A stretch of 57,396 nucleotides of DNA, from IMG/VR virus record IMGVR_UViG_3300042391_000568, positions 1 to 57,396 of that record; one strand, given 5' to 3'. Position numbers and translations under genes: made by a program. Origin of the DNA: a virus. Positions 7,430 to 46,873 of this stretch are shown here, in pieces; position 1 is the first letter of the stretch, and each line of letters opens with the position of its first letter. The notes under the pieces are model-generated. The model saw only the letters and a program-made list of their open reading frames with translations, ran no database searches and had not been told where the DNA came from.

Positions 7430-8995
7430 CTATGGTTTATAAAATATAAAAATTGGTTCGTATTTATATGATGTTCCTTCTAATTTCATAGAGTTCTTTA
7501 CACCACTTAAATCTACACCAGTCATTGGACTCATTGTCATTCTAAGTTTACCTTTGTACTCCATACCTAAACTTGTAAGTACATCAATACTATCTTGTTC
7601 TAATGTAAACCATTTATCTTTACCCACTTTGATATCTGCAATATTCCAGCAAATATATCTATCATTTTTAAGATATTCAAATGCAGTTGTTAGTGTTGGC
7701 TTTAAGAAACCATCTCTCCAACTTTCATATGAATTAAACTTTTTAAACGATTGTGAATCATCATCTGAATATCTCTCTCTATCAAAGTATGGTGGTGATG
7801 TAAATATAAAATCTAATTCACCTTTATACTTTTGAAATTTTGGGTCTTCGGATATAACCTCTGAACCTGTTGTAAATATTTCATATGTATTTTGATGTCC
7901 CCAAAATGGATTAGCTACACCCGGTACTTGTGTATTAAAGAACTCTGCTAAGTATTCATAACGAGTCTTTCCTATCTCTGGTATTTGGTTTTCAGTATTA
8001 GGGTCATTTCCAATGTAGTGAATATTTCTATCACCCACACTCAATGCTCCTAATATCCTACCACCCCATCCAGCCGAAGGGTCATAGATATTAATCTTAT
8101 CTTGTCCTTTAATATGTTGAGTAAACCTTTCATATAAATACTTTGCAGTTAATGGTGGAAAGTTTACTGCCGGCTGAGAACCCATACCAATTCTAAATGC
8201 GGCTGTTGCTTCAGGAAATATTCTCTGACCCAATGGGTACACCCTGATTTGAATTGGTTGTTTAGGTAAATCAACTAAGTTATCTATATTCTCACCCCAA
8301 TCGGCAGTTTTCAAAGATGCGATATGTTTATATTCTAACACACCACTTTTGTATAACTCTTTTACTTCCTCTGCTGAAATGGGTAATGATGGTATTCTAC
8401 TATCTGCTTGCGATAAGGCGAATCCTAATCCCACACCACTATCACCACTTTGCCATTTCTCAATCCATTCCTTACCTGTTGCTAAGTGTGAATTGTGAAA
8501 CTCTATATTATCTTTATGAAGGGTTTTGGAGAAACGATACATACCATCTTGTCTTGTCAATCTTCGCATTTGCTTTGTGAATAACTCTAAATAGTCATCC
8601 GATGAAAAGATTTCATAGATTGATGGTTTTGGTTTATCGTATGTACTACCACCTATTGCAGTTTTGTACATAGCCGGAAAGAATTGATTTACGGGAGTAG
8701 CGAACTTATTAAAGTTAAAGATAACTTCATTTCCATCATCATCCTTTTCCTCAAACTTAGTTATCTTATAACCTTGTAGTTTAGAAAAGTTCTCAATGAT
8801 TTCTGCTTCATTAACCCCAATCTTAGGTGGTGCACCAGTCTCATCCCACTGCTTTAATGCAGTTTTCTTAAAGTTGGCTACCCACTTTTCGAAGTCAGGG
8901 AATGACATCTCAAGTACTTGCTCATACTTGAGATTCATTTCCGGGTCATAGAACCAATCACTTCTCTCGTAAAAATATTTCTTTTCGTAATTCAT
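7430..8995 (-). CDS. TSPPY-type DNA methyltransferase-like protein (copy 1)
   Basis: A 521-residue protein with a SAM-binding motif YDPSAGWGGRILGALS near residue 302, a second-strand motif YIGNDPN, and the catalytic TSPPYFDRERYSDDDSQSF motif near 390. A TSPPY box after the SAM site is typical of N4-cytosine or N6-adenine amino-methyltransferases. The N-terminal ~280 residues are not recognised and may recognise the target. A paralogue sharing the AGWG...TSPPYF.ERYS.DD core lies at 21958-23190. The gene lies 3 nt from dUTPase and abuts the clamp gene. Base specificity cannot be read from the sequence, and no partner nuclease is seen. Confidence 0.75.
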   Translation of the reverse strand: MNYEKKYFYERSDWFYDPEMNLKYEQVLEMSFPDFEKWVANFKKTALKQWDETGAPPKIGVNEAEIIENFSKLQGYKITKFEEKDDDGNEVIFNFNKFATPVNQFFPAMYKTAIGGSTYDKPKPSIYEIFSSDDYLELFTKQMRRLTRQDGMYRFSKTLHKDNIEFHNSHLATGKEWIEKWQSGDSGVGLGFALSQADSRIPSLPISAEEVKELYKSGVLEYKHIASLKTADWGENIDNLVDLPKQPIQIRVYPLGQRIFPEATAAFRIGMGSQPAVNFPPLTAKYLYERFTQHIKGQDKINIYDPSAGWGGRILGALSVGDRNIHYIGNDPNTENQIPEIGKTRYEYLAEFFNTQVPGVANPFWGHQNTYEIFTTGSEVISEDPKFQKYKGELDFIFTSPPYFDRERYSDDDSQSFKKFNSYESWRDGFLKPTLTTAFEYLKNDRYICWNIADIKVGKDKWFTLEQDSIDVLTSLGMEYKGKLRMTMSPMTGVDLSGVKNSMKLEGTSYKYEPIFIFYKP

Positions 8996-9714
8996 TATGC
9001 CGATAATTGTACCTCTACTAAATAATATTTACATACAAAATCATCAATGATGAAACTGATATGTGCTAATCCTTTAGAAGATACTAATAATTTAGCCGAT
9101 GTTGCTTCTTTGTTTGCAGTTAAAATCTCTTTCAAATACTTTGCAGAGAATGAAATTGCTTTAACATCACTTGCATAGTTTTCTACTGCTTTGAATGTAA
9201 TTCTGTTTGAGTTTACATTTGAGTAACCCATAACAATGTTCAAATTACCTTTCTCAGTTAATACTGTAAATGTATCAACATCACTCAATGCGTTTTTAGC
9301 TTTGATGAATTTGTCGATAAACTTACCATCTAAATCGATTTCAATATCAAATGGTGGTAATGATTTTAGTTCAGGTACATTTGGGATAACACTTAAATCT
9401 GCTAATTGATAAGCTGCTTTAATATCATCACTACCTAAACCTAATGCGATTGATTTATCCTCAATCTTTTGAACTTCTAAATTAACATCATCACCTAACA
9501 CCGATAACATTTTGTTTAGATTAGAAGTCGTATAGATACCTAACTCTGCATTTTCAAAGTTAAAGTTATCTAATGTGATTTCACCTAATACTGTTTTGTC
9601 ATCTGCGATAAACTTTGTTGATAATTTTTGACCATCGGTAGTCCATGTAACCGATTCAACTAATCCAGCTAAATTGTATTTGCTGATAAAGCGTGTAATT
9701 CTTGTTTTGTTCAT
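8995..9714 (-). CDS. 45: DNA sliding clamp, T4 gp45-like
   Basis: A 239-residue protein close in length to T4 gp45 (228). The fold signature is weak in sequence but clear in context: alternating strands with NFENAELGIYTTSNLNKML, an acidic inter-domain region and a C-terminal FVCKYYLVEV strand. It would form the trimeric ring that tethers polymerase to DNA. It lies next to the polymerase gene, as in T4-like phages, and has its own promoter at 9737-9768. Confidence 0.8.
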   Translation of the reverse strand: MNKTRITRFISKYNLAGLVESVTWTTDGQKLSTKFIADDKTVLGEITLDNFNFENAELGIYTTSNLNKMLSVLGDDVNLEVQKIEDKSIALGLGSDDIKAAYQLADLSVIPNVPELKSLPPFDIEIDLDGKFIDKFIKAKNALSDVDTFTVLTEKGNLNIVMGYSNVNSNRITFKAVENYASDVKAISFSAKYLKEILTANKEATSAKLLVSSKGLAHISFIIDDFVCKYYLVEVQLSA

Positions 9715-9736: not shown

Positions 9737-9768
9737 TAAAGATACGATTTTTATTCCATTCTACCAAA
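9737..9768 (-). promoter_or_regulatory. Early-type promoter for the sliding clamp
   Basis: The minus strand reads TTTGGTAG, 16 nt, then TATCTTTA. The distance between TTTG and TA is 20 nt, within the 19-21 nt known for Bacteroidetes -33/-7 promoters. The -7 box ends 22 nt before the clamp ATG. Confidence 0.75.
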
Positions 9769-9771: not shown

Positions 9772-12297
9772 TTAGAAGGAAAAGAATTCCTCTAATTTCT
9801 TTGAACTGAATGATGATTTTTCCCATCCTAATGCCTTATAGAAATCATCCATTTTATTCTCTAATTCTGCCTCAAATATCTTATCCACATCAATATACTT
9901 TTGGATAAATTCTAATATCTCTGGTGGGTCTTGATAACCTTTGAATGCGGTTGTTTCCAAACTTAATGGATTTTGTTTTAGATATACCCACTTAATCTTA
10001 TCACCATCTTTCATTGGTTCAAACTTAAAAGGACAATTAAAGTGTTTAAGTAATCTATTGTAAGTAATTCCAGCCTTAATGTGTGCAGGTGTTCCTTTCT
10101 CAAAATCACCTAATTGTTTATTCTTACCACGTTTATCATATCTACTAATTTCCTTAACTGCACCACCCTTTGCAATAAGTGCCACATCTAAACCGGCTAA
10201 TGATAATTTGAAATCTCTTAATTCATTATCTACACTTTCGTTTGATTTACCTTGTAGAATATCTCGTAACATTCTCGCCATAAAATCTTGGAATGCTTTT
10301 GGAAATGATGAACGAACTACATCCAAACCTTTCACATCTAACTTATCCATCGGTAAACCATTTGCTGCAACTATCCATTGTGCATATCGTTTTTTTGCAA
10401 TCCATATACCTGCTTTACTGATATATTCCTTTTTAATTTCAAATCTATGTTTGTTGATATTAAAGAACTTAACTGCCATCATATCATAAAACTTATTTAA
10501 GAAATCCTGTACTTCACCTGCTATATCATCAATCTTTTCTGTCATTGCCACATCATCAAACTCTGTCCAATTAGGGAATCTATGTTTAACTAATGGTAAT
10601 GCTGAAAAGAATACTGAATCCGTATCGATGTATATGTTGTAATCATCATTCGTTCCCAACTCTTTGTTATACTTAATATTCACCATCTTAGCAGTATTCT
10701 TAATCACCGTCTGACCTGTTGTAGTTACCGCTGCTGCATTATCCACATCATAAAAGCGAAACGCTGGTAATCCCAATACTCCATATAAAGAGTTAAGTAA
10801 AATCTTTTGAACCAATTGTCTTTTAGCATAGAATTCATGTTGTTGTTTATTACCTTCCTTACCAAATTTCTTTTCTAATTTACGGAACTCCACACGTTGC
10901 GAGAACCACTCATCTAATATATCTGCAATAAGACCTGGTTTATCTTGTGTGTATAATACGCCATTAGATGATATAGATAAATTTTCCTCACTCAATTCTT
11001 TTCTCAATTCTTCGGTAGTATAATTAAGTGCCGTATGTTCTATGTTCCATACTCTATAATCACCTTTAACGAATGCTTCTGCATCAAAGTTTGCAATCTT
11101 ACCCACCTTTGTTTCAGGACTGATATTCAGGCTCATAATGATTGATGGATATAGTGATGTTAAATCCAAATCATATAACCAATCATACTTACCTGGTATC
11201 GGGTCTTTTACATATGCTCCAATGAAACCCTGCTCACCACTCTCTTTTAGAGCCTCCATTTGTTCTCTCCTATCGGCAGGTTTGTTTGGTGCTACTAAAT
11301 TTCTTTTCTTTAAATAGTTCAAACAAGCTCCCTCTAAGTATTTAGATGAGAACATATAATCCTCATATGGAACGTGGCCGGCGTGACAAATACCTCGACA
11401 CAAGTCAATATATTGTAATTTTTTATCAAACTCTACTACTAATTCCACATCGACAATGTTATACTCAATGAACTTCTCTAAATCTTCTTTGAATAAATCA
11501 TCTAAACTTCCTTCGTATGCAATTTTCTCTCTACCTAATTCTTTTTTTGCAATATAATTCAATGCGTAAGATGGCATTAGTGAATATGTAAACTTCTTAT
11601 ATAGAGTAATGTAATCTAAAATAGATACCCCAGCTAAACTCCACTTCTTTCTATAAGGTGAATAGAATCCATCTCTAATTGGTGATAATCTATACGCGTT
11701 TTGCTTACCCAATACATTAACTAAACGATTGAATAAATATGGAATATCAAATGCATCAATGTTCCATCCGGTTAAGATTGAAGGATTGATATGCTCGTAG
11801 ACTGTTAGGAATGCATTAAGTAATTCTCTCTCACTCTTAAATGATTTAATAATACGATTATCTTTTTTGATTGTATTTTGTAACTTACCTTCTTTATCTA
11901 AAACTAATGCGTAGTAGGTATCGGTAGGTCCATCATGTAATGCGATTGCTGTAATTTCATTCTCAGCTTTCTCTACATCCGGCAATCCACTTTCCATTTC
12001 TACCTCAATATCAAACGTAAGCACCACGTGACCTTCCGATGGTAAATCACTTTCTGAATATAAATCTACTAAGATACGGGTTGTTTCGGGTACATCTGTT
12101 TCGTAATACGCCGGGTCATCCTTTTGGAACTCATAGATTTTAGTAACCTTTGTTCCATCTAATGCCGTTGATTGTCCTCGCTCTGCCGGTGCGTAAGCGT
12201 AGTTAAATGTTTTATATGGGAATGTTTGATACCCTAATTTATCATCCCAAAGATGGACTAAATCTTTTCCTTTTTGTAAGTAGACGTTTTGATACAT
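9772..12297 (-). CDS. 43: Replicative DNA polymerase, family B (T4 gp43-like)
   Basis: An 841-residue family B polymerase with both activities. Proofreading exonuclease motifs are FDIEVE near 95-100 (Exo I), GWNIDAFDIPYLFN near 177-190 (Exo II) and YNIVDVELV near 280 (Exo III). Polymerase motifs are DLTSLYPSII near 378 (A), KILLNSLYG (B), YIDTDSVFF (C) and the KKRY box. No intein or truncation is seen; it is a little shorter than T4 gp43 (898). A promoter with its -7 box only 6 nt from the ATG lies upstream, implying a nearly leaderless message. Confidence 0.96.
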   Translation of the reverse strand: MYQNVYLQKGKDLVHLWDDKLGYQTFPYKTFNYAYAPAERGQSTALDGTKVTKIYEFQKDDPAYYETDVPETTRILVDLYSESDLPSEGHVVLTFDIEVEMESGLPDVEKAENEITAIALHDGPTDTYYALVLDKEGKLQNTIKKDNRIIKSFKSERELLNAFLTVYEHINPSILTGWNIDAFDIPYLFNRLVNVLGKQNAYRLSPIRDGFYSPYRKKWSLAGVSILDYITLYKKFTYSLMPSYALNYIAKKELGREKIAYEGSLDDLFKEDLEKFIEYNIVDVELVVEFDKKLQYIDLCRGICHAGHVPYEDYMFSSKYLEGACLNYLKKRNLVAPNKPADRREQMEALKESGEQGFIGAYVKDPIPGKYDWLYDLDLTSLYPSIIMSLNISPETKVGKIANFDAEAFVKGDYRVWNIEHTALNYTTEELRKELSEENLSISSNGVLYTQDKPGLIADILDEWFSQRVEFRKLEKKFGKEGNKQQHEFYAKRQLVQKILLNSLYGVLGLPAFRFYDVDNAAAVTTTGQTVIKNTAKMVNIKYNKELGTNDDYNIYIDTDSVFFSALPLVKHRFPNWTEFDDVAMTEKIDDIAGEVQDFLNKFYDMMAVKFFNINKHRFEIKKEYISKAGIWIAKKRYAQWIVAANGLPMDKLDVKGLDVVRSSFPKAFQDFMARMLRDILQGKSNESVDNELRDFKLSLAGLDVALIAKGGAVKEISRYDKRGKNKQLGDFEKGTPAHIKAGITYNRLLKHFNCPFKFEPMKDGDKIKWVYLKQNPLSLETTAFKGYQDPPEILEFIQKYIDVDKIFEAELENKMDDFYKALGWEKSSFSSKKLEEFFSF

Positions 12298-12303
12298 ATG
12301 TTA

Positions 12304-12335
12304 TAAAAATACAACAAATTATCCTAATAACCAAA
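12304..12335 (-). promoter_or_regulatory. Early-type promoter for DNA polymerase
   Basis: TTTGGTTA, 16 nt, TATTTTTA on the minus strand. The -33 box begins directly after the stop codon of the upstream gene (12336), and the -7 box ends 6 nt from the gp43 ATG. This leaves only a few bases for a 5' leader. Confidence 0.7.
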
Positions 12336-12866: not shown

Positions 12867-13360
12867 ATTACCTTTTCGAACATATCGTTTATTATTTTTT
12901 TATTTTCCATTGTATTTTCAATATCAAATATTAATGCAATTCTATTTTTAGTTCCCAAATTATTTACTTTATGTTTGTTTTGTATACTAAAATGATAAAT
13001 GTATCCAGGAAACATTACAAATTCATATACTGCACTCATTTCTTCAACATAACTTAATACCAATTCATTGGTTATGATTGGCATTATAAATCGTAATTTA
13101 TCAGTATCGTTGTCGTCTACATGCCAATCTATATTTTTATTAGATGATTGAAAATGTAGTTTAAAATTTAATAAAGGGAATATTGAATTAAAGTATTCAA
13201 ATGTAGTTTTGTAAACCGGATGTGATTCTAAAAAATTAGAGTCATTTATATAATCATTAACTCCATTGTGATTAGAATGTGATTGTATATAATTACTATT
13301 TAAAGATTCATTTAATAAATTGTTAAATGTGATATTATCGTATTTTAATTTAACTAGCAT
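12863..13360 (-). CDS. Putative 2OG-Fe(II) oxygenase, Asp/Asn hydroxylase-like
   Basis: A 165-residue protein. Residues around 80 read IDWHVDDNDTDKLRFIMPI, an HxD iron site followed by the arginine typical of aspartyl/asparaginyl hydroxylase-like folds. Around 130 it has a second His, then NNLGTKNRIALIFD, giving the distal His and the 2-oxoglutarate-binding Arg. This order suggests an Fe(II)/2OG dioxygenase with a small cupin core. Substrate unknown. It shares a base with the nucleosidase gene upstream and overlaps the 2H gene downstream, forming a tight three-gene set. Confidence 0.6.
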   Translation of the reverse strand: MLVKLKYDNITFNNLLNESLNSNYIQSHSNHNGVNDYINDSNFLESHPVYKTTFEYFNSIFPLLNFKLHFQSSNKNIDWHVDDNDTDKLRFIMPIITNELVLSYVEEMSAVYEFVMFPGYIYHFSIQNKHKVNNLGTKNRIALIFDIENTMENKKIINDMFEKVI

Positions 13361-13917
13361 TAGCTTACTTTAAAATCTTCTTTTAATTTTTCTAAGAATT
13401 TTGCTATTCCTTTATTGTGATTTTTTTTCCAATCATTTGCATCACCATTATCCGAAATAAATTTATATGAAACAAAATCAAAACCATATATTTTACATAC
13501 TTTTGCAATTGAATATGCTTCCATATCACATATGGAACGTTTTGTATTACTTTGAAACGTATCAGTTGTAAAACATACATCACTATTACCAAATGTTAAA
13601 ATTCCTGCTTCTAATTTAGGGTGAATTATATCATCAAATGGAGTAACATATTTTTTTGCAAATTGCTTAGTATCTATATCACCTTGTTGAAATTGTAAAC
13701 ATTTAATAAGTTCACCAATTTTATAATCAGATGAACCAGCTGAACCAAAGTTTATTACTATTGTTTCGGTTGGTGATAAATCTTTTAATATTTCAGTTGC
13801 TTTAATTGCTGCATTTACTTTACCAACCCCAGTGTATATAACATCCACTCCCATTGGTTCTAATCCTTTTGGAAACTCACTTGGTAATGCAACAAACAAT
13901 TTTATTCTCATACTCAT
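13360..13917 (-). CDS. Nucleoside phosphorylase/nucleosidase-family protein
   Basis: A 185-residue member of the PNP/MTAN fold. Visible are the N-terminal LFVALPSEF strand, YTGVGKVNAAIKAT (phosphate/ribose loop), INFGSAGSS, and CDMEAYSIAKVCKIYG followed by KFISDNGD with the catalytic Asp. This pattern matches MTA/SAH nucleosidases better than phosphorylases, although it is shorter than the usual 230 residues. It could salvage purines, remove SAH made by the phage methyltransferases, or deplete a nucleotide signal. The start is taken as MSMRIK at 13917; MRIK at 13911 is equally possible. Confidence 0.75.
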   Translation of the reverse strand: MSMRIKLFVALPSEFPKGLEPMGVDVIYTGVGKVNAAIKATEILKDLSPTETIVINFGSAGSSDYKIGELIKCLQFQQGDIDTKQFAKKYVTPFDDIIHPKLEAGILTFGNSDVCFTTDTFQSNTKRSICDMEAYSIAKVCKIYGFDFVSYKFISDNGDANDWKKNHNKGIAKFLEKLKEDFKVS

Positions 13918-15616: not shown

Positions 15617-15886
15617 TTAATAGATATGTGTTTCTTCGTTTCTGAAATCACTCGTATCTAATTCAAATCTATTTTGTCTTATTCTAGCTTCCTCTGCTGC
15701 TTTATACCATCTAATCCAGGTCAAAGATGCATCAATAGGTGCCAATACCCATGCCATCATCAATACCATAATAGTATCCAATTCAGGAGAACCACCGGTA
15801 GGGTCATTTGAATATCGTTTGTCTAAGTTTTTAAATAACTGATAGAAACAATAAATAACACAAATTACATAATAACTAACTAACAT
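15617..15886 (-). CDS. Small membrane protein
   Basis: An 89-residue protein with two hydrophobic segments, at residues 2-18 (LVSYYVICVIYCFYQLF) and about 38-58 (IMVLMMAWVLAPIDASLTWI), and a charged C-terminus. This suggests a two-pass inner-membrane protein. Function unknown. It sits between tRNA-Ser and a 56-residue gene, which overlaps its start region by 11 nt. Confidence 0.5.
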   Translation of the reverse strand: MLVSYYVICVIYCFYQLFKNLDKRYSNDPTGGSPELDTIMVLMMAWVLAPIDASLTWIRWYKAAEEARIRQNRFELDTSDFRNEETHIY

Positions 15887-16046
15887 AACTTTCTTTTTTA
15901 GGTTTTATTGAAATTTTTATACTTTCTTCTTTTATATGAGGATTTACTTTTATAGTTGTTGCACCATTTTTTTTATCGTGCATAAACACATAACTATGTA
16001 CTTCTTTACCTATTAATTTTGCAATATTTTCTTTTGTAATCTCCAT
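15876..16046 (-). CDS. Small protein, 56 residues, unknown
   Basis: The frame MEITKENIAKLIGKEV... ends ...KPKKESYVS and is lysine-rich. A strong early-type promoter lies at 16054-16085, with its -7 box ending about 8 nt before the start codon, which supports the gene despite its size. It overlaps the downstream membrane-protein gene by 11 nt. No family recognised. Confidence 0.5.
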   Translation of the reverse strand: MEITKENIAKLIGKEVHSYVFMHDKKNGATTIKVNPHIKEESIKISIKPKKESYVS

Positions 16047-16053: not shown

Positions 16054-16085
16054 TAAATATACAAAAAATAAATTATACTACCAAA
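16054..16085 (-). promoter_or_regulatory. Early-type promoter for the 56-residue gene
   Basis: TTTGGTAG, 16 nt, TATATTTA on the minus strand, just downstream of tRNA-Met. Same spacing as the gp43, gp45 and gp32 promoters. Confidence 0.7.
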
Positions 16086-18343: not shown

Positions 18344-19272
18344 AAATAAAATAGGGATGAGAATACTCCATATTGTGAACCAGCTTTAGAAAGATTATTA
18401 GTTCCTTCCGTTTCCACTACCTTTTGAGTAGTACCAATTCAATGTGGATGATTTAAGACTATCAGTCTTTAAGTTGCCGATTACTCTCTACTTAATTATT
18501 TTCTTTAAGCCTCGCAGCCTAATTAATTCTTGCGGAATTAGAAACCTTTCGGTAGAATCACAGACTTCTTGCGGAAGTATCGTGGCTAAGAACAGCTCTT
18601 AACTATGTACACACCTTTCACCTGCAACTGGTAAACACTTAAGCTTAATTTTTAATTTGTAGTTTTTACACCGAAGTAAAAATTGAGTTTTAGTTTATAG
18701 AATTATTCAGGTAGTGGTTTACCACTAGCTCCCCCAATTTTTGGTCGAGAGAATACTAAACTACCCGATGCAATATCCCTACTGCGTTATTTTGAGTCAT
18801 CTTCATTGAGTAGTTTTGGTAAACTAGTTCAAAGGATAGTAACAGCACCACCTGTACACAGTCTTATCTTACGTCCTTTCGGATGGTTTGATGTTAAGAC
18901 CACTCTGATAATGAATACCGCAATGATATAGAGGGATTAAGTCTACATTTCTTACTGATATTCTATGGGTTATTCTTATTGGTGTTCCCACCTCAGTCGG
19001 AGTATCTATAATACCCAAACTATTCTGACTGTTCCGATATAGTGTTACCCTTTCGTACAAAGCCTAAATAATATCCCACTTGCATACTTGAGTTAGTCTC
19101 TCCTTACGGGGAAAGTAACCGCAGATGTATCACTTAATACACCCACTTTATCCTTGTTTCCAAGTTTATTTACCGACCATATGCGGCCGTTATTCACTAT
19201 GTAAGATAAACTTACTATGTGAAATTATTTCAATAATGTAAAGAACTTTTTAGGTGTTACCCTATTGTTTTA

Positions 19273-19304
19273 TAAATATACGATAATTTTTTTAAACTAC
19301 CAAA
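19273..19304 (-). promoter_or_regulatory. Early-type promoter for the large RNA
   Basis: TTTGGTAG, 16 nt, TATATTTA on the minus strand. Transcription should begin near 19265-19270, at the 5' edge of the structured region. Confidence 0.75.
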
Positions 19305-19326
19305 TATTTTAAACTTTTTTTTTCTA

Positions 19327-19371
19327 AGATTGAATACCGAGTATCTTTCATCACCTATAAGTTTCAATCTT
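19327..19371 (-). ncRNA. Hairpin RNA directly after a promoter
   Basis: Minus strand AAGATTGAA pairs with TTCAATCTT across about 28 nt, starting where the promoter at 19378-19409 should initiate. An A-rich stretch follows, not a U-tract, so it is a 5' structure rather than a terminator. It ends just before the next promoter. Confidence 0.4.
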
Positions 19372-19377
19372 ATATAT

Positions 19378-19409
19378 TAAAGATACACTAAAGTTTTCAA
19401 TCTACCAAA
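19378..19409 (-). promoter_or_regulatory. Early-type promoter
   Basis: TTTGGTAG, 16 nt, TATCTTTA on the minus strand, about 105 nt upstream of the promoter at 19273. The two are in tandem and would give long and short forms of the large RNA. Confidence 0.72.
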
Positions 19410-19507: not shown

Positions 19508-19511
19508 TTTG

Positions 19512-19584
19512 TTGCGATGGGAAGATTCGAACTTCCGACCTCTAGGTTATGAGCCTAGCGAGCTACCTCTGCTACTACATCGCG
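19512..19584 (-). tRNA. Initiator tRNA-fMet(CAU)
   Basis: Anticodon CTAGG-CTCATAA-CCTAG. The acceptor is CGCGATG/CATCGCA, giving the C1xA72 mismatch that marks bacterial initiator tRNAs. The run of three G-C pairs in the anticodon stem is incomplete. It lies 4 nt after the tmRNA. Confidence 0.85.
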
Positions 19585-20009: not shown

Positions 20010-20041
20010 TAAAGATACAACAATTATTTCAATCTACCAAA
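20010..20041 (-). promoter_or_regulatory. Early-type promoter for tmRNA
   Basis: TTTGGTAG, 16 nt, TATCTTTA on the minus strand. Its -7 box ends about 20 nt before the mature tmRNA 5' end, which RNase P would generate. Confidence 0.75.
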
Positions 20042-21220: not shown

Positions 21221-21973
21221 TTAAATTTTATTTTTTAATAATTCTACTATTTCTTTATGTCCTTTTGGTGATGGATGTCCTCTTTCCTCAAACATACTAT
21301 CATCCTTAAATCCTTTGAGATATTTTGTTAAGTTTATATCTTTAAAACTTTGTGGAATTTGTTTCCATAAATCTACTAACCCAAAGTAATCGTTAGTATC
21401 ATCAAATTGTTTAGCAACTTTTTCAGTATGAATATCTTTGTTTAAAGTAAAAATTTCATCTTCATCGTAATCAAAGAATGCATTTATATAAAGATAAGGT
21501 ATTTTATTCGCTTCACAAAATGATTTAAGGGAAATTATTTGATGAAAAACCCTTAGTAATGAAGGAGTTAGGTGTGTTTGATGAATTACATATTTACTAT
21601 CCGTCAAATGTTGTTCATCAATTTTACCCCACTTATCCTTATGTGTCCACAATCTCTCGTTTACAAATACATCACCATCAAAATAATCAAATCTAGTAGG
21701 TGCAGTAAAAGAAATCAATACAAACATCTCATCTACTTTAACATATCCCAATTCCTCATTGTAAATTGGCTCAGCATTAACAAACTTACATAAATCTCTT
21801 AAAGTATTTCTATAAATTCTATCATTGGATATACCACTACTAGCTACATTGAAATCTACCAAACCTTTTTCTTTGGCCAACAATGAAGAGAAACGATTAG
21901 TTCTATCCTTTAATTCAGAACCCCAACTAACCGAATCACCATTTGTATATAGTATTTTTAATTTTTTCTCCAT
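21221..21973 (-). CDS. SGNH-hydrolase-like protein (copy 2)
   Basis: About 250 residues from the ATG at 21973; a GTG two codons earlier is possible. TNGDSVSWGSEL near residue 9 is block I with the Ser nucleophile, ASSGISNDRIYRN near 46 fits blocks II/III, and RGHPSPKGHKEIV near the C-terminus carries the catalytic His. It looks more canonical than the copy at 13927. It overlaps the methyltransferase upstream by about 16 nt. A role in removing acyl groups from surface or DNA-linked sugars is possible but unproven. Confidence 0.7.
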   Translation of the reverse strand: MEKKLKILYTNGDSVSWGSELKDRTNRFSSLLAKEKGLVDFNVASSGISNDRIYRNTLRDLCKFVNAEPIYNEELGYVKVDEMFVLISFTAPTRFDYFDGDVFVNERLWTHKDKWGKIDEQHLTDSKYVIHQTHLTPSLLRVFHQIISLKSFCEANKIPYLYINAFFDYDEDEIFTLNKDIHTEKVAKQFDDTNDYFGLVDLWKQIPQSFKDINLTKYLKGFKDDSMFEERGHPSPKGHKEIVELLKNKI

Positions 21974-23190
21974 ACCCACATTGGTTCACAAAACGTTTTA
22001 TCAGCTGCTTCTCTTGCTTTTTCTAATGCTTCTTCGGTATATCTACCTTCATCACCCTCTATAATTGCCCCAGCACCTGCACTACCAGGTCTTTTTGCCA
22101 TTTCCATACCCATACACCCTAAGTATTCTGCACCCTCTTGTTTCTCAAGGTATTCGTTCATAGGAGTAGTGATTGCTCTATAACCTTTATCCGTTCCTTT
22201 TGATGAAGCGTACACATCCGCAATGTTTACAATTAGAACACCACCTTTTTTAAGTGTTTTCCAAATCTTTCCTAATGCTTTGTGTAAGAATTGTTCGTTC
22301 CACTCATCAATTGTTTTATATCTAACCCAACTTTGTGTATCATCATACGAATACCGTTCCACACTAAAATAAGGAGGACTTGTAAAAGCAATATCAAAAT
22401 AGTTATCATATCCAGCATAGTCAAAATCTTCAGCTGGACTCTCCACAAAATCAGCTTTCTTTTCCAATTCAAAGAAGCCATTATTTTTTTCATAGAACTC
22501 CGCCTGTTGTCTATAAATAGGATGGTTTTCTTTACGCGGGTCAATACCTACATAATGTTTTCCGTATTCACTCGCATAGAAACCACACATTCTATCTCCC
22601 CAACCTGCTGCAAAATCTAATACGGTTTCTGCTTTAAAGTAATCGTATAATGCTTTTGCTACATTTGGTTTGAACTGAGAACAAATATATTTTCGTAAAG
22701 ATAAAGCTACTCTTAAACTACCTCTATCAATTTCATCAAACTTTAATGTGTACATTGCACCCATTAGCGTAACCATAAATTCATATGTTCTCCAAGTTCT
22801 ATCAGGACCCGGTGATACCGTTCCATCTACACCCCATCTATTCGCTTGTTGAAAATAGTTTGATGCTTGGTTTCCGGTATTAACTCGTCTAAAATACAAT
22901 TGTTTACCTTCGAATCCTAATCCGAATTTACTATCACCTGCTTTACGAATGAACCACTCATCATCTTTCAATAATTCGTTCCATCTCGTCTTTTTTAATG
23001 CTAAGTATTCTTTACGGGCATCATCCTCACTAATTTCTTGATAAGGTAAGGGATATTCCATAGCTAATCTTGCTAAGGATTCACACACATCTGCTTTCTC
23101 AAATGTGGTTTGAATATGTTTCCATTGTTCTGCATTGATATACAGGTATGGTGACATATTTTTGAATTGGTCAAAGTAATCTAAATACAT
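21958..23190 (-). CDS. TSPPY-type DNA methyltransferase-like protein (copy 2)
   Basis: A 410-residue paralogue of the protein at 7430. Shared features are VLDFAAGWGDRMCGFYAS (SAM site), YVGIDPRKENHPIY, and FTSPPYFSVERYSYDDTQSW (catalytic box), then a strand LKKGGVLIVNIADVYAS. It is about 110 residues shorter at the N-terminus. Having two enzymes with one catalytic core but different flanks suggests two target specificities. Overlap with the SGNH gene implies coupling. It is probably an amino-methyltransferase, but the modified base is unknown. Confidence 0.75.
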   Translation of the reverse strand: MYLDYFDQFKNMSPYLYINAEQWKHIQTTFEKADVCESLARLAMEYPLPYQEISEDDARKEYLALKKTRWNELLKDDEWFIRKAGDSKFGLGFEGKQLYFRRVNTGNQASNYFQQANRWGVDGTVSPGPDRTWRTYEFMVTLMGAMYTLKFDEIDRGSLRVALSLRKYICSQFKPNVAKALYDYFKAETVLDFAAGWGDRMCGFYASEYGKHYVGIDPRKENHPIYRQQAEFYEKNNGFFELEKKADFVESPAEDFDYAGYDNYFDIAFTSPPYFSVERYSYDDTQSWVRYKTIDEWNEQFLHKALGKIWKTLKKGGVLIVNIADVYASSKGTDKGYRAITTPMNEYLEKQEGAEYLGCMGMEMAKRPGSAGAGAIIEGDEGRYTEEALEKAREAADKTFCEPMWVWRKN

Positions 23191-23226
23191 ATAACTAAAT
23201 TTACGAAAATTATTTGATAAAACCTA

Positions 23227-23490
23227 TTATTTTATAGCTTCATTTATAGCATTTACATATGCTAATTTAGAACTCAATCCTGTAAACCTTTCAACAATTT
23301 CACCATTTTTTTCTATGATGATTGTTGGAACTGATGTTACATTGTATTTTGTAACTTCTTCGTTGTAATCATCTACATCATAATCTTCAAACTTTACATT
23401 TGAAAATTGTCCTTTAATCTCTGTCATAACCGGTGCTAATGCTCTGCATGGTCCACACCACACTGCACTAAATTTTTTAACTGTTACCAT
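23227..23490 (-). CDS. trxA: Thioredoxin
   Basis: About 87 residues from MVTVKKFSAVWCGPC. The WCGPC redox site, the YDVDDYNEEVTKYNVTSVPT stretch with its cis-Pro, and IIIEKNGEIVERFTG are all typical. A longer start at 23514 has GGAAG upstream, so the N-terminus is uncertain. It would supply reducing power to the ribonucleotide reductase three genes upstream, or act with the polymerase as in T7. It overlaps the PhoH gene by 14 nt or more. Confidence 0.88.
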   Translation of the reverse strand: MVTVKKFSAVWCGPCRALAPVMTEIKGQFSNVKFEDYDVDDYNEEVTKYNVTSVPTIIIEKNGEIVERFTGLSSKLAYVNAINEAIK

Positions 23491-24199
23491 TTTTTTTGTT
23501 TTTAAAATCTTCATATTCTTCCAATAGGGCATCAACTACTGAATGTCTATGATTTACTAATAATGTCTGCGATGCCATCTCTTTTACTTTCTTAGCTACC
23601 CTAAGTAAAAATCCAAATCCACTTTCACCCCTTTGTTTTAAATCTACCTGAGCAGTATCACCACATACTACCATCTTACTTCTAATACCCAGTCTACTTA
23701 CAATCATTTCCATTTGTTCATGAGTGCAGTTCTGAGCTTCATCTACAATTACAAATGAGTCTAAGAAAGTTCTACCTCTCATAAATGCTACCGGCACAAT
23801 TTCAACTTGTCCGTTTGCTAATATCTCATCTATTTTTTCTCTATTATAAAGTAGATAGAAGTTTGAATAAATTGGTTGCATCCAGGGTTCCATCTTTTCT
23901 CTAAGGTCTCCTGGTAGAAATCCAATTTCTTCTTTACTTACTGTCGGTCTTGTAATGATAATTTTACTAACCGTTTTCTTAAATAACATATCCAATGCAA
24001 TTTGACAAGCTAATAGTGTTTTACCACTACCCGCTTTACCACTTAGAATTGTAATTGCGTTATTTAAAATTTTATCTTTTGCCTCTTTTTGTTCCTCATT
24101 CAATTGAATTTGAAACTTAATAGGTCCTTTTTCTTTTTGCTTTTCTTCTCTAATTTTCTCTGTCAATTCTTTGTTTTTTGTTGATTGATTTTCTCCCAT
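23477..24199 (-). CDS. phoH: PhoH-like ATPase
   Basis: A 240-residue PhoH family protein. LSGKAGSGKTLLACQIALD near residue 53 is Walker A, IIITRPTV near 80 and FVIVDEAQNCTHEQM near 150 (Walker B) are family signatures, and VVCGDTAQVDL near 183 follows. The N-terminal 35 residues are highly charged. PhoH proteins are common in large phages and are linked to RNA metabolism, though their role is unclear. The gene overlaps neighbours on both sides. Confidence 0.9.
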   Translation of the reverse strand: MGENQSTKNKELTEKIREEKQKEKGPIKFQIQLNEEQKEAKDKILNNAITILSGKAGSGKTLLACQIALDMLFKKTVSKIIITRPTVSKEEIGFLPGDLREKMEPWMQPIYSNFYLLYNREKIDEILANGQVEIVPVAFMRGRTFLDSFVIVDEAQNCTHEQMEMIVSRLGIRSKMVVCGDTAQVDLKQRGESGFGFLLRVAKKVKEMASQTLLVNHRHSVVDALLEEYEDFKNKKNGNS

Positions 24200-31394: not shown

Positions 31395-31604
31395 TTATTT
31401 TTTTAAACCGTACTTAATCCATTTATACCAAACTCTTTCATGTAGATAATACTGAATAGGTTTGTAAATCAATTCTGCTACCCCAAATGCGGCACCTACT
31501 TTAATTGAACCACTTATCAACCACATTAATAAGAAACCAATTAACGTACTTACAATTCGATATGAGATAGTTTTTGCAATGTGTCTCTTTCTTTCTACTA
31601 CCAT
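31395..31604 (-). CDS. DUF2061-family small membrane protein
   Basis: A 69-residue protein with HIAKTISYRIVSTLIGFLLM, a hydrophobic core (LMWLISGSIKVGAAFGVAEL) and KPIQYYLHERVWYKW. This order matches DUF2061, a two-helix membrane family with a conserved HERxW end, known next to sulfate-assimilation genes in bacteria. That is notable because an APS-kinase-like gene lies two genes upstream. Function unknown. Confidence 0.75.
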   Translation of the reverse strand: MVVERKRHIAKTISYRIVSTLIGFLLMWLISGSIKVGAAFGVAELIYKPIQYYLHERVWYKWIKYGLKK

Positions 31605-31987
31605 TACTTATCTGCTTCTATGTTGTATACAATTTCATCACCATTTGTATCTATGTATTTATTTCTAATTGCAGTACCACTTATTTCTTCAATTTCTTTT
31701 GGTGGTTCATGATAGATAACGTTATACCCAACTGCTCTACCATAGTTTACACTTTCAATATCTGGTATGATTGATAATAAAATCTTATCAAAATTATTTG
31801 TAAAGAATGGTTCGGTTGATAATTCTTTTAAAACCTGTTGTGCGGTTTTAGGATTATTCTCATCTAATGGAACATCTCTAATTGCCACCCAAACATTTTT
31901 ACCTTTTTCTAACTGCTGATTAATTAACCACTCATGTCCTTTGTGCCACGTTTGCCATCTTCCGATGAATAATGCGTATTTTTTCAT
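31604..31987 (-). CDS. Nucleotidyltransferase, NMNAT-like (HxGH family)
   Basis: A 127-residue cytidylyltransferase-fold protein. FIGRWQTWHKGHEWLINQ carries the HxGH nucleotide site near residue 16, and EISGTAIRNKYIDTNG near 107 matches the ISxTxxR signature. It adenylylates or cytidylylates a small phosphate compound; NMN to NAD is one possibility, phosphopantetheine another. It shares one base with the DUF2061 gene. The promoter at 31993 would place it at the head of a transcript with almost no leader. Confidence 0.75.
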   Translation of the reverse strand: MKKYALFIGRWQTWHKGHEWLINQQLEKGKNVWVAIRDVPLDENNPKTAQQVLKELSTEPFFTNNFDKILLSIIPDIESVNYGRAVGYNVIYHEPPKEIEEISGTAIRNKYIDTNGDEIVYNIEADK

Positions 31988-31992: not shown

Positions 31993-32024
31993 CTAATATA
32001 CAATTTATTTATTAAATTCCCAAA
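31993..32024 (-). promoter_or_regulatory. Probable early-type promoter
   Basis: TTTGGGAA, 16 nt, TATATTAG on the minus strand, with the -7 box ending 5 nt before the NMNAT-like ATG. Weaker match than others. Confidence 0.5.
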
Positions 32025-32854: not shown

Positions 32855-35217
32855 TATTGTCTCTTAGGTGCATTATGAAATCTACCTGCGCCAGGGTTTT
32901 TACTTTTACCATCTAATGTAAATCCAATATTAAATTCTGATTGTGGATATGCTAATACATCAATTCCGTTTGAACTATCTATTGCAATTTCACCTGCTTT
33001 AACTAATTTTCCACCACCTCTATCTTCTTTTTGCGATAAAACCGAATCATTTGCAAAATCTTGTACATCTACATTTTCATTATATGCTTCATGTGCTAAG
33101 TTAGTATAGATATAATATGATTCTAAACGCATTTTAATTTTAGCCAATGTATCTTTATCAATTGGTAAACCAGCTCTATTTCTTTCTAATACAATACCAC
33201 CTAATGCAGATGCTATTTTTTTAGCGGCTCTTCCACCTGGTTTCATTTCTGATTCCATTTGTTTAATAAATGCAGGTTTTACATTTAATTCTAATGCTTT
33301 CTTTTTAATTTCAGATTGATATGCATCGTTTAATTTTTTGTGGTCTGCTGCTGATTTATCCATACCCAATCCATATGGTACATTGTGTGATTCTGATAAT
33401 GCTATTACACCTTTTTTAATCAATCCTTTCGGGTCATTTTTATATGTAGATTTTCTTGTTTTTGAAGTCAATGCACTTGCACCACCTACTCCTTTCTTAA
33501 CACTTCTACCATCTAATGTTACAATTCTATTTGTCCCCATACCATCACTAATCGTAATAACATCTACGGTTTCTAATGTTTGTGATTGTGGTAATAATGC
33601 ACACTTACCATGTTCTGTTCCGTTACCATTATCTTGCATTTCTTTGATTGCTACAAATATTTCTGCGTAGTTTGCCCATCCTTCTCTTAACGATGGTTCA
33701 CCTTCATGATTAGCTACCTTAGATAAAATATGTTCAAAATCTTTCAACCATTCTTTTGGATTTTTATTAGGGTCTCTTTTACTAAAATTATCTAATACCG
33801 TAATTAATGCTAATGTTTCTTTATCAGCAATCATTGCCTTATCTGCTAATACTTTAAAACGATTTGCCATACCACTAATAGCATTTTGAATTACTATTAC
33901 TCTATTTTTAGGAGAATCAGGAACTACACCTTTATCCATATCAATAAAGTCCATATCATTCGCTTCAATCTTAGCAGAATATTCTTCTAAATTTCTATTA
34001 TTTCTTTCTCTTAATTTCTTTTCGTTTGGTTTAATTCCTTTCTCATTCGGGTCTAATCGTATGATATTTAATCCCCCAATCTTAACTGATTGCACTACAC
34101 CATTTTTATCTTTATTTACTTTTGCTGCACCTTTTAATAATCTAGTATTTCCTTTATCATCTGTAAATGTTTGATTAGCTGTTGTTTTCTTTCCACCAAA
34201 TGTCGATGTTGATAATTCAGGAATACCATTTTTAGTTGCCCATTGTCTAAATGCTCCGATTATTGGAGTTGATTTATCTTTTGCACCAACATATACTCTA
34301 CTTCTTTTATCTTGTCCAGCTGTTTTGAATACACCCGGTTGACGTGCAATATATACTTTACATGCGTTTGGATTTGCATCAGTTGGTTCTGCTACTCTAA
34401 CATATTGTGCTAATAATTTTTTCTCACTTGCACTTAATGGAGTACCAGTAAACATTTTTTGTAATGATGCTTTTACTGCTATATGTGCTTTTTGATTAGG
34501 ATTATTTTTATCTTTAATAAATTTATCCACTTCCTTATAAACACTCTTAATTGCAGTTACTACATTATCTTTACTTGTCTTAGTATTTTTATTATCTTCA
34601 AATCTACCAAATACATCCTTCAATGAACCACTTAAATTAACATTAACAGGTTGTTGAACCGGTGCTGTTTTTTTAGTTGGTGCTGCCGTTGGAGTTTGTG
34701 GTTGTGGTTTTTGTTGTGGTTGTGGTTTTGGTGCTACTTTAGATTGTGGAGTAACTTGTGGTTTTGGTTTAGCGTAGTATTGTGGTTCTTCCGGGTTAGG
34801 GTCATCAATCATATCCACATTCTTTTCACTATAACCTGCTCCTTTTAACATTGCAGCTGCTGCGTGATATGCTGACCTTGCACCACTACCCTTTTGGTCT
34901 TTATAATTCAATGCTGATGCTACCGTTACATCTCTACCTGTATCTGCATTTCTTACTTTCTTTTTTAAGATTGCCGCTAACTTAGGGTCAGTACCATCTT
35001 TCTTAGGTGCTTCTAATGTAAATTTCTTTGGTGCTAAACTAATAGCTTCCATCAATTCTATATCGGTAAATGCTTCCGCACCGAATTGTTCTAATACTGA
35101 ACGTAAATGTTCTAGTTGTTCTTTGTTATCAAAGTTTGGAATTGGATATGTAACACAAAATTCTGTTAAAACCTCATCAATAATTTCACTAAGATTGTCT
35201 AAGTTAAAGTTCATCAT
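32854..35217 (-). CDS. Large protein of unknown function with Pro/Gln linker
   Basis: A 787-residue protein. Residues 1-70 are helical and acidic. A KKDGTDPKLAAIL...KVRNADTGRDVTVASALNY segment follows, then a low-complexity Pro/Gln/Lys linker (about 145-200), then a large region with VYVGAKDKSTPIIGAFRQWA, TISDGMGTNRIVTLDGRSVK and ESHNVPYGLGMDKSAA. Presence of a disordered linker and size suggest a modular virion or DNA-associated protein. No enzyme motif is convincing. It overlaps the family A polymerase gene by 14 nt. Confidence 0.55.
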   Translation of the reverse strand: MMNFNLDNLSEIIDEVLTEFCVTYPIPNFDNKEQLEHLRSVLEQFGAEAFTDIELMEAISLAPKKFTLEAPKKDGTDPKLAAILKKKVRNADTGRDVTVASALNYKDQKGSGARSAYHAAAAMLKGAGYSEKNVDMIDDPNPEEPQYYAKPKPQVTPQSKVAPKPQPQQKPQPQTPTAAPTKKTAPVQQPVNVNLSGSLKDVFGRFEDNKNTKTSKDNVVTAIKSVYKEVDKFIKDKNNPNQKAHIAVKASLQKMFTGTPLSASEKKLLAQYVRVAEPTDANPNACKVYIARQPGVFKTAGQDKRSRVYVGAKDKSTPIIGAFRQWATKNGIPELSTSTFGGKKTTANQTFTDDKGNTRLLKGAAKVNKDKNGVVQSVKIGGLNIIRLDPNEKGIKPNEKKLRERNNRNLEEYSAKIEANDMDFIDMDKGVVPDSPKNRVIVIQNAISGMANRFKVLADKAMIADKETLALITVLDNFSKRDPNKNPKEWLKDFEHILSKVANHEGEPSLREGWANYAEIFVAIKEMQDNGNGTEHGKCALLPQSQTLETVDVITISDGMGTNRIVTLDGRSVKKGVGGASALTSKTRKSTYKNDPKGLIKKGVIALSESHNVPYGLGMDKSAADHKKLNDAYQSEIKKKALELNVKPAFIKQMESEMKPGGRAAKKIASALGGIVLERNRAGLPIDKDTLAKIKMRLESYYIYTNLAHEAYNENVDVQDFANDSVLSQKEDRGGGKLVKAGEIAIDSSNGIDVLAYPQSEFNIGFTLDGKSKNPGAGRFHNAPKRQ

Positions 35218-36550
35218 AATTTTTACCGGTCGTTGTTTTTACTTGATACCTACCATAACCACCTTTTAATATAGGTATGATATCAGTATATAAATATTGT
35301 TTTTCTGACGGATACACATCAAATACAAACGCATCGTATGTATATAATATCAATTTTGTGTGTTTTCCTTCTAATTTCTCTTTTATTTTTAGTATTTTTC
35401 TTATATTTCTTTCAGTTTCGTATGCTTGGATATAATAATTAAGAACTTTTGCGGGAGTTATAGGTTCTAATCTTTCAATACCAAACTGAATATGATATGA
35501 ATGCGTAAAGATTGCTTTGTTTTTTACCATTGTTTCTGATAATAAGTCAGTAAGATGTTGTATCTCTTTAAAATATTGAATATCTAATAACTCACTTCTA
35601 ATCCCACCATATAAATTTTGGAATATTAAAGTTTTTACTTCGTTTCTATCATCAATACCAATTTGATTTCCAATCCATGTATAAAAATCTAACCCACTAC
35701 CATAGAAATCTTTCATCCATTGCATTTCTTTTACATTTGCAGTTGAATTAAGTTTCATTTGGTAAATAATATCCATCAATAATCTTGGGTGATACGCTTC
35801 AAAATCACAACTAATCAATTCACCACCATCAAATCTACTTATAAATGCCTTTCTTTCACCGGTATCTTTTTTAAGTGCAGCATAGTTTACACCACCATAT
35901 CGGTTCGATGGTCGGAGTGTAGATGTCATTAGGTTATATTGAGTATAAACCATATTATCCTTCGTTAAATGAACTGGATTGTAGGTTAAAACGTAATCCC
36001 CATCTACCTTTAATCCACTACTTTCAATATAACTAAATGCCTTTGTTGCATCATCTATGTATTTAATTGAATTTTTGTTTACATTAAGTGAAAACTTAGA
36101 AACATATTGTTGTATAAGTTCTATTTGTTTAACCATTGGAATACTATCATTCAAATATGGTTCACCTTTAAACTTTGATTTGTAAAATTGGTTTAACTGA
36201 TTATCTCCTAATTCAATATCATGATAACCATACTCAATAAATTTAGCTAAATCTACATCAAATCCTTTTGTAAAATTTAATATTTGTGAGATTGCTTTGT
36301 AATTAAAAATTAACTGAGGATGTATTGTGTCTAATAATTGTGATAATGCTTCTACTTTAATTCCTAGCCCATCCCCATTGTTTACATTTATAACCCACTC
36401 ATTCTTTTTTGATTTGACATAAATAAAAGATATACGATTGTTCATCACATGCTTTTCTTCATCTGATAATCTAACGTATATTAAATTAGTATGTTTTCTA
36501 TATTCTATTAAGAAACTTTGGAATTCAAATTTATCTTCTACAAATATCAT
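35204..36550 (-). CDS. Divergent family A DNA polymerase-like protein
   Basis: A 448-residue protein with all three pol A motifs in degenerate form. TSTLRPSNRYGGVNYAALKK near 218 is the template-strand motif, ELISCDFEAYHPRLLMDI near 245 is motif A with the catalytic Asp, NEVKTLIFQNLYGG near 303 is motif B, and LILYTYDAFVFDVYP near 408 is motif C. In motif C the usual HDE has become YDA. No 3'-5' exonuclease motif was seen. The phage already has a family B replicase, so this may be a repair, primer-extension or repurposed enzyme. The promoter at 36556 gives a 5-nt leader. Confidence 0.7.
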   Translation of the reverse strand: MIFVEDKFEFQSFLIEYRKHTNLIYVRLSDEEKHVMNNRISFIYVKSKKNEWVINVNNGDGLGIKVEALSQLLDTIHPQLIFNYKAISQILNFTKGFDVDLAKFIEYGYHDIELGDNQLNQFYKSKFKGEPYLNDSIPMVKQIELIQQYVSKFSLNVNKNSIKYIDDATKAFSYIESSGLKVDGDYVLTYNPVHLTKDNMVYTQYNLMTSTLRPSNRYGGVNYAALKKDTGERKAFISRFDGGELISCDFEAYHPRLLMDIIYQMKLNSTANVKEMQWMKDFYGSGLDFYTWIGNQIGIDDRNEVKTLIFQNLYGGIRSELLDIQYFKEIQHLTDLLSETMVKNKAIFTHSYHIQFGIERLEPITPAKVLNYYIQAYETERNIRKILKIKEKLEGKHTKLILYTYDAFVFDVYPSEKQYLYTDIIPILKGGYGRYQVKTTTGKNYDEL

Positions 36551-36555: not shown

Positions 36556-36587
36556 CAAAGATAATACATTTTGGTTATAATACAAAA
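36556..36587 (-). promoter_or_regulatory. Probable early-type promoter for the family A polymerase
   Basis: TTTTGTAT, 16 nt, TATCTTTG on the minus strand. The -7 box matches Bacteroidetes TAnnTTTG exactly and ends 5 nt before the ATG. Confidence 0.55.
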
Positions 36588-36616
36588 TAAAAAGGAGAGT
36601 AATTAAACTCTCCTTT
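36580..36616 (-). terminator. Rho-independent terminator after the PhyH-like gene
   Basis: Perfect 10-bp stem AAAGGAGAGT...ACTCTCCTTT on the minus strand followed by a TTTATTTTG tract. It overlaps the promoter of the next gene. Confidence 0.85.
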
Positions 36617-36625
36617 CGTTTGTGA

Positions 36626-37435
36626 TTAAAAACCACCAAAATTCTTTTCATCTGATTCTGTCCAATGTTTTGCTTTTAAAGCGTGCAAATCAATTGGTTC
36701 TCTTTTCATATGTCCACCTTTATTAAAGATTGCTCCTTTTTTAAGATATCCACCTAATAAGTTTCTACGGAATCTATTTGAGTTATTTGCCTCAGAACCA
36801 TGTACACAATGTGAGTGTAACAATACTACTTGTCCTTTTCTTAAATAACCTTCTACTTTACGAAAATCATGTCCTTCAGGCATTACACACGGTTTACCTC
36901 TTTCGTTTCTCCAAAATGTAGGATTAGTTTTTGTTCTATCTTCATCTACTTCGATTGGTAAAGTTTGTAATCTATGTGAACCTTCGTAGTTCCATACTGC
37001 ACCATTTTCAGGATCGTGATTATCTAATGCTAATGCAGTGTTGATAATTTCATTGTGTCCACATCCTGTATAAAATGCGTTTTGATGTTGGTCACGTCCT
37101 AATTGTCCCGGTGGTTTAAAGTAACACCATGTCTGCATTCCTTGTACTTCACCTTCCATTAAAAACTCACATGCTTCCAAAATCTTTGGATGGCAAAACA
37201 TTTTTTCTAATTTAGGTGATAGTTTGTGTGGATATGCAAAAGGGTCCCACTCTCCCCATTCTTTACCATCTTCGGTAGTTGTACCAATTCTTTCTTGTCT
37301 TAATTTTTCTAATTCAGCGTTTACTTCATCAACCTCTTCTTCGGTTAATAATTCTAATACGGTGAATCCTCTGTATCTCCAATCGAAAGTAATTTGTTGT
37401 ACTTCTAAATCGGTTAGATGTTTGAAATTGCTCAT
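36626..37435 (-). CDS. Phytanoyl-CoA dioxygenase (PhyH)-like protein
   Basis: A 269-residue protein with the PhyH pattern. GRDQHQNAFYTGCG near 115 is where the HxD iron site should be but reads HQN. PENGAVWNYEGSHRLQTLP near 143, GQVVLLHSHCVHGSEANNS near 205 (distal His) and RFRRNLLGGYL (2OG-binding Arg) follow. The Asp-to-Asn change would weaken iron binding, so activity is uncertain. It stands alone with its own promoter and terminator. Confidence 0.75.
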   Translation of the reverse strand: MSNFKHLTDLEVQQITFDWRYRGFTVLELLTEEEVDEVNAELEKLRQERIGTTTEDGKEWGEWDPFAYPHKLSPKLEKMFCHPKILEACEFLMEGEVQGMQTWCYFKPPGQLGRDQHQNAFYTGCGHNEIINTALALDNHDPENGAVWNYEGSHRLQTLPIEVDEDRTKTNPTFWRNERGKPCVMPEGHDFRKVEGYLRKGQVVLLHSHCVHGSEANNSNRFRRNLLGGYLKKGAIFNKGGHMKREPIDLHALKAKHWTESDEKNFGGF

Positions 37436-45260: not shown

Positions 45261-45277
45261 ATCTTTGCATGATTTTA

Positions 45278-45287
45278 TATAAATATC
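45278..45287 (-). promoter_or_regulatory. Late-type promoter motif GATATTTATA
   Basis: Lies 18 nt before the start of the 69-residue gene, immediately after the terminator at 45291-45328. No -33 TTTGG box. Confidence 0.5.
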
Positions 45288-45290
45288 ATA

Positions 45291-45328
45291 TAAAACAAAA
45301 AGTTAGGAGTTTATCTTCTCCTAACTTT
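45291..45328 (-). terminator. Rho-independent terminator
   Basis: Perfect 11-bp stem AAAGTTAGGAG/CTCCTAACTTT on the minus strand followed by TTGTTTTA. The stop codon of the frameshift extension (45311) lies inside it. Confidence 0.85.
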
Positions 45329-46856: not shown

Positions 46857-46873
46857 AACTATATATTTGTATA

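Follow-up and report, generated by a model that had tools for sequence, protein, structure and literature searches.

Phage mRNAs that start directly at the AUG are known from lambda cI and similar cases, which are single regulatory genes, and in phage T4 the synthesis of the DNA polymerase is controlled at initiation by the translational operator of gene 43. Bacteroidota ribosomes hide the anti-Shine-Dalgarno sequence and favour upstream adenines, and ordinary Bacteroidota messages carry an A-rich leader. Here we describe promoters of the Bacteroidota type in the single 57,396-base virus record IMGVR_UViG_3300042391_000568 (the window, analysed at its full length) that lie so close to the start codons of a gp43-like family B DNA polymerase gene (9772–12297, minus strand), a family-A-polymerase-like gene, an NMNAT-like nucleotidyltransferase gene, and a gene of 56 residues that the predicted mRNAs would be almost leaderless, a reading to which we assign a probability of roughly 0.83. 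The long genes of the window (33% G+C) all lie on the minus strand, with no plus-strand open reading frame (ORF) of more than 136 aa in the window, and the record is that of a lake virus whose host is probably a member of the Bacteroidota.

A comparable arrangement has been reported for the TA-led genes of bacteria, where the constant and short spacing between a -10-type box and the start codon implies a leader of approximately zero (Zheng et al. 2011, PMC3160421). In that study, >20% of genes were leaderless in Actinobacteria and Deinococcus-Thermus, and the Bacteroidetes were one of the clades said to have many ‘atypical’ genes. Unlike in the TA-led genes, the box in the phage is of the Bacteroidota -33/-7 type, for which the consensus is given as TTTG/TANNTTTG (PMC6847099, PMC7366714). 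The -7 box of Flavobacterium psychrophilum spans positions -12 to -5 (PMC9723704), and in Flavobacterium johnsoniae, of 434 candidate -7 elements, the 241 that stand 4 or 5 nt before the transcription start site (TSS) were accepted as probable promoters (PMC6847099). Initiation in the Bacteroidota is described as depending little on Shine-Dalgarno (SD) pairing (PMC6847099, PMC9976891), literature that backs the statement to this effect in a preliminary description of this DNA.

The motif in the window takes the form TTTG-N19/20-TANNTT[T/A][A/G], and sites of the sigma-ABfr promoter type (-33 TTTG, -7 TANNTTTG or TAHHTTTG) are present. Upstream of gp43 the sequence reads TTTGG-N19-TATTTTTA-TAACAT-ATG (12335–12298; all features below are on the minus strand), consisting of a -33 element (TTTGG, 12331–12335), a -7 element (TATTTTTA, 12304–12311), and a 6-nt linker (TAACAT, 12298–12303), for which the TSS offset of PMC6847099 predicts a leader of 1–2 nt. 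The same two boxes precede the family-A-polymerase-like gene (35204–36550; phrog_17, matching the ‘DNA polymerase family A’ of Flavobacterium phage immuto) as TTTTG (36583–36587) and TATCTTTG (36556–36563), the NMNAT-like gene (31604–31987; weak profile matches to cytidylyltransferase families) as TTTGG (32020–32024, within the 3’ end of the upstream gene) and TATATTAG (31993–32000), and the 56-residue gene (15876–16046) as TTTGG (16081–16085) and TATATTTA (16054–16061). The distances from box to ATG are 6, 5, 5, and 7 nt for gp43, the family-A gene, the NMNAT-like gene, and the 56-residue gene, respectively, as the preliminary description had it (5–8 nt), and the leaders predicted from the published Flavobacterium offset (0–3 nt) fall inside the 0–5 nt that it had proposed. 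A gene for an N6_N4_Mtase-type DNA methylase (21958–23190) is a weak fifth near-start candidate, with a -7-like element (TAAATTTA, 23196–23203) 5 nt before the ATG and a degenerate -33 element. For comparison, the gene at 8995–9714 has an ordinary leader, with its promoter (9737–9768) ending 22 nt before the ATG. None of AGGAG, GGAGG, AAGGA, and GAGG occurs within 20 nt before the start of any of the five near-start genes, and the base at position -3 is C, T, T, A, and T; F. johnsoniae prefers A at this position.

The motif is far more frequent on the gene-bearing strand than chance would allow. There are 10 sites of a strict pattern (TTTGG-N17..20-TATNTTTA), every one of them on that strand, compared with an expectation of 0.17 for both strands and 0.07 for the minus strand, and two of these sites end 4–8 nt before a gene start (an outcome reached in 15 of 20,000 circular shifts). 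With a relaxed pattern, four of 21 sites fall 4–8 nt upstream of one of 51 gene starts (0.093 expected from circular shifts; 1 of 20,000 reached four). The relaxed pattern was composed with the sites already in view, so the spacing kept in related contigs is the stronger evidence. The -7 box ends in A at all 10 strict sites, as the strict pattern requires; the family-A gene has a G there, as do most sites in the sister contig G002. Copies of the motif also precede the tmRNA (promoter at 20010–20041), a tRNA group, and the GOLLD region, which marks it as a promoter rather than a signal for translation.

The gp43 gene (phrog_262, E 1.1e-181) encodes a protein 50% identical to the polymerase of Microcystis phage Mel-JY01. 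Relatives were collected as loci, several of which share one contig and each of which is counted as a row (L and G numbers denote individual loci and contigs); 28 gp43 loci came from a first search and an alignment search kept 80 of at least 541, some on identical contigs. Of the 101 gp43 rows that include upstream sequence (71 haplotypes in all), 27 have a near-start promoter, and every one of these 27 rows with a distance of ≤8 nt (the window and 17 contigs, some twice; nine haplotypes) starts with ATG, the box ending 6 nt before it. Across the 18 tabulated rows, the two boxes hardly change, with seven of the eight columns of the -7 box invariant over nine haplotypes, and variation falls in much of the spacer and at linker positions -6 and -4; the 17 tabulated relatives have TATCTTTA as the -7 element and, as the -33 element, TTTTG one base further upstream.

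The spacing is also kept at the family-A gene and the 56-residue gene. Upstream of the former, the box lies 4 or 5 nt before an ATG in 24 of 24 rows (seven haplotypes), including G002, where gp43 is just 68% identical; these rows derive from the best 80 of 84 relatives, 21 of them close, and the rows of ~30% identity, which miss the start codon, were left uncounted. A terminator-like hairpin (36590–36617) of 11 pairs lies immediately upstream, its T-rich tail overlapping into the -33 element. In the window none of 200 shuffles folds as well, and in L045 a stem of different sequence still beats all 200. Terminator-like patterns of this region are no rarer in shuffles (three found, 2.5 expected), so the case for a terminator rests on the fold, its conservation in 21 relatives, and its position. 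Upstream transcripts should stop at the hairpin, so the family-A gene’s own mRNA should be leaderless. For the 56-residue gene, the distance of 7 nt, the ATG, and the position of the start are kept in 10 of 10 rows (seven haplotypes).

The NMNAT-like gene appears in two forms. Among 101 rows (38 haplotypes; from the best 80 of 268 relatives), the box ends 5 nt before the ATG in 23, 4 nt in 37, 19 nt in 27, and 21 nt in one, and no promoter was matched in 13; all 60 rows of the short class start with ATG. The promoter is followed by either AAATACGAAATTATAATTT-ATG or AAAT-ATG, the latter being the former minus exactly 15 nt. On the NMNAT gene tree (93 rows), the leaderless label needs six changes, of which at least five are forced by well-supported branches. 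The toggle would be expected from recombination of the region upstream as well.

Near-start promoters are found beyond these genes as well. A gene of ~400 aa (MKFWETGE...) upstream of gp43 has one 3–4 nt before its start in seven rows, in part of the relatives with 62–65% identity (L145, L152, L164, L175, and others). Two further sites in the window have a -7-like box and no -33 element: one 7 nt before the gene at 23477–24199, which was excluded, and TATATTTATGAGTATG before the gene at 13360–13917, which is ambiguous. TATATTTATGAGTATG or near variants of it are kept in relatives, and a second ATG of this gene would sit 5 nt after a TATATTTA box.

In the pooled loci, the distances from box to start codon fall into two ranges. 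Pooling the window and all loci, with L029 (the window’s own copy), Mel-JY01, and immuto set aside, and counting promoter-plus-leader haplotypes in which an ATG with an open frame of at least 45 codons follows within 60 nt, there were 132 unique haplotypes: none at 0–2 nt, 30 at 3–7 nt, one at 8 nt, none at 9–15 nt, 58 at 16–30 nt, and 43 at 31–60 nt. The single case at 8 nt looks like chance. Among 33 protein clusters, the short class comprises the NMNAT-like gene, the 56-residue gene, gp43, the family-A gene, the ~400-aa gene, and a small cluster at 4 nt (two rows); the strict pattern matched gp43 only in the window and the family-A gene only in G002. The floor of the distribution at 4 nt (with one case at 3 nt) equals the published TSS offset, which would put +1 on the A of the AUG, and the empty range of 9–15 nt implies that leaders of approximately 4–11 nt are avoided. 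A fairer estimate comes from G001 (126 kb), where a single fixed pattern, which does not catch the NMNAT box of this contig, found 19 sites, of which 13 face coding sequences, four precede RNA genes, and two lie within genes; for the 13, the distances are 5, 6, 7, 16, 19, 20, 22, 22, 23, 28, 32, 46, and 99 nt. The Bacteroidota hosts are alike in promoter type, in SD-independent initiation, and in having some very short leaders; they differ in that leaderless messages are a small minority there, with 5.5% leaderless in F. psychrophilum (PMC9723704), ~3.7% of 5’ untranslated regions <10 nt in Bacteroides thetaiotaomicron (PMC7366714), and 87% of leaders >10 nt in F. johnsoniae (PMC6847099), compared with three of 13 sites at 5–7 nt in the phage relative G001.

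These genes combine a box at a fixed distance (rows at 4–7 nt), an AUG start, and the lack of an SD. The TSSs, the sigma factor, and leaderless translation are deduced from the sequence. Under the proposed mechanism, the sites would be promoters for a Bacteroidota housekeeping-type sigma factor, with RNA polymerase starting 4–5 nt past the -7 box. The transcripts of the family-A gene, the NMNAT-like gene, and, less surely, the methylase gene would start at the A of the AUG or one base before it, that of gp43 1–2 nt before the AUG, and that of the 56-residue gene 2–3 nt before. The 5’-terminal AUG would then be read by 70S ribosomes, or by 30S subunits with fMet-tRNA, in the absence of either SD pairing or an A-rich leader.

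Several points weigh against this reading. The 4–5 nt offset is itself a selection, made on 241 of 434 candidate elements, and the pool was gathered around gp43, the NMNAT-like gene, and the family-A gene and so over-samples them, such that the leaderless share cannot be read from it. The host is deduced solely via relatives, and the phage boxes often end in A instead of the G of the host consensus. In immuto, the sole cultured Flavobacterium relative examined, the promoter pattern has no strand bias (six forward, six reverse) and the family-A gene has no clear near-start box. The methylase candidate failed the two-box test in four of four rows, with a good -33 element absent. Finally, gp43, the NMNAT-like gene, and the methylase gene lie only 24–38 nt downstream of co-directional genes and may also be carried on long-leader read-through mRNAs. 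It is conceivable that the near-start promoters are minor and that most of the protein from these three genes comes from such messages, particularly as no own promoter was matched in 64 of the 101 gp43 rows (mostly relatives of 62–65% identity), which are probably polycistronic. We regard this as unlikely, because the family-A gene has the terminator-like hairpin upstream, the 56-residue gene comes after a tRNA, the gp43 boxes are retained while the spacer drifts, and the gap at 9–15 nt is unexpected if the promoters were irrelevant.

The leaderless state may alternatively have arisen by neutral compaction through intergenic deletion, without regulatory meaning, to which we give slightly less than even odds. 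The arrangement fits compaction: the intergenic gap of gp43 (38 nt) is exactly the promoter plus 6 nt, and a simple deletion of 15 nt separates the two NMNAT forms, with repeated state changes on the tree. Deletion by itself would not predict the lack of distances of 9–15 nt, which indicates a constrained end state, and the family-A gene stays leaderless despite a 75-nt gap upstream. The low G+C content of the window and the 3–9 chance matches per strand given by relaxed patterns could be taken to mean that the boxes are chance matches or an AT-rich translation-start context, a reading made very improbable by the occurrence of the two-box motif before tmRNA and tRNA genes, the fixed spacing of the -33 element, and the reversed-motif control (two haplotypes compared with 132). 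It is equally hard to sustain that the true start codons lie further downstream, behind normal leaders. The start codons are predicted, but homologues of gp43 (48–68% identity) align from residue 1, backing its ATG, and the next methionine is residue 101; in the NMNAT-like protein the motif GRWQTWHKGH begins at residue 9 and no other methionine was found in the ORF, which fixes the start. The near-start boxes themselves are confirmed, and their anatomy supports the reading of almost leaderless mRNAs.

The gp43 relatives that have their own promoter and a longer leader mostly use other start codons. Six rows (three contigs, two haplotypes) have AUU after the extended SD AAGGAGG and three rows on three contigs have UUG (TTG in L128, L193, and L194); the one leadered gp43 with AUG (L172, 56 nt) has a box that is probably inside the upstream gene. 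Where no own promoter was matched, 63 of 64 rows have AUG and one has AUU with the SD. For the ATT starts after AAGGAGG (L020, L017, L018, L127, L129, L111, and L191), no alternative start was present in the upstream frame to the stop in the three checked (L017, L018, and L020), and the first later methionine is residue 26 or 37. The few independent cases hint that gp43 initiation is held weak, and it is possible, though doubtful, that where gp43 has its own promoter its initiation is kept low, with leaderlessness as one of three interchangeable means. A gene for ribosomal protein bS21 is present in four of eight contigs tested (G002, G007, G008, and G009), with no match in G001, G003, G006, and the short G010, all of which may be fragments. 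In G002, the 120-kb contig of L020, the bS21 gene (114241–114396) has no extended SD, and across the 120 kb the extended SD pattern matches at gp43 only. In F. johnsoniae, ribosomes without bS21 are reported to prefer extended SDs (PMC9976891), so gp43 of G002 could be tuned by bS21 occupancy.

The preliminary description had also suggested that an initiator tRNA encoded by the phage may be related to the short leaders. An initiator-type tRNA-Met (19511–19584), 3’ of the tmRNA, does exist and its C1xA72 mismatch is conserved in eight of eight rows; the anticodon stem has the full GGG/CCC in three (L015, L016, and L024) and AGG/CCU in five, including the window. We take the C1xA72 mismatch and the GGG/CCC stem to be the marks of an initiator tRNA. 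A tie between this tRNA and leaderless initiation is speculation. A GOLLD RNA (18354–18768; Rfam, 277.7 bits), also present in L005, L008, L015, and L020, is flanked by the tmRNA and initiator tRNA on one side and the tRNA cluster on the other, and lies downstream of a promoter at 19273–19304. A short conserved stretch (19310–19377) follows a promoter of its own (19378–19409) and has the arms AAGATTGAA...TTCAATCTT; its core, GATGAAAGATACTCGGT, is also found in L111 and L114, and the stretch has no Rfam match at the gathering score.

With its family B gp43-type polymerase and companions recognized by match (gp32-like, RecA/UvsX-type, clamp-loader-type, and tail sheath), the virus is T4-like. 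The family-A gene matched six of 50,697 phage records, namely four records of Flavobacterium phage, that of Mel-JY01 (stated host Microcystis), and one uncultured, and the order of family-A, ssDNA-binding, recombinase, 5’-3’ exonuclease, and helicase genes is common to the window and immuto, with extra genes interspersed. Two other possible host clues gave no lead: eight stretches of bacterial genome contigs fit a pattern in a search for gp43 and none encoded a relative, and DUF5522 was found in none of 14 control genomes and gives no host information. The genome of Mel-JY01 (L030/PP395634) has nine promoter-like sites forward and two reverse (controls, three and four), and its assignment to Microcystis may merit checking. 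Motifs resembling TATTTATA, which in reverse complement is the late motif TATAAATA of T4, end 17–40 nt upstream of seven mostly structural or late genes (36626–37435 and 45051–51835) and likewise precede several structural genes in immuto. As a late promoter this motif was rejected, with 17 copies in the window compared with 15.6 expected and only its position suggestive.

Leaderless mRNA is already known; what looks new is that phage enzyme genes would use it in a phylum with few such messages, and that relatives toggle between the leadered and the leaderless state. Among the open-licence papers listed, none dealt with leaderless mRNAs in Bacteroidota phages, which does not establish absence from print. 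Unlike lambda cI, the genes concerned here are those for replication and nucleotide enzymes of a T4-like phage. Compared with T4 gene 43, a leader of 1–2 nt would leave no room for a T4-like operator upstream of the start, and control through such an upstream RNA operator would be unavailable to gp43 in this phage. The 15-nt switch between leadered and leaderless forms in these lake phages would represent a natural experiment on initiation by Bacteroidota ribosomes.

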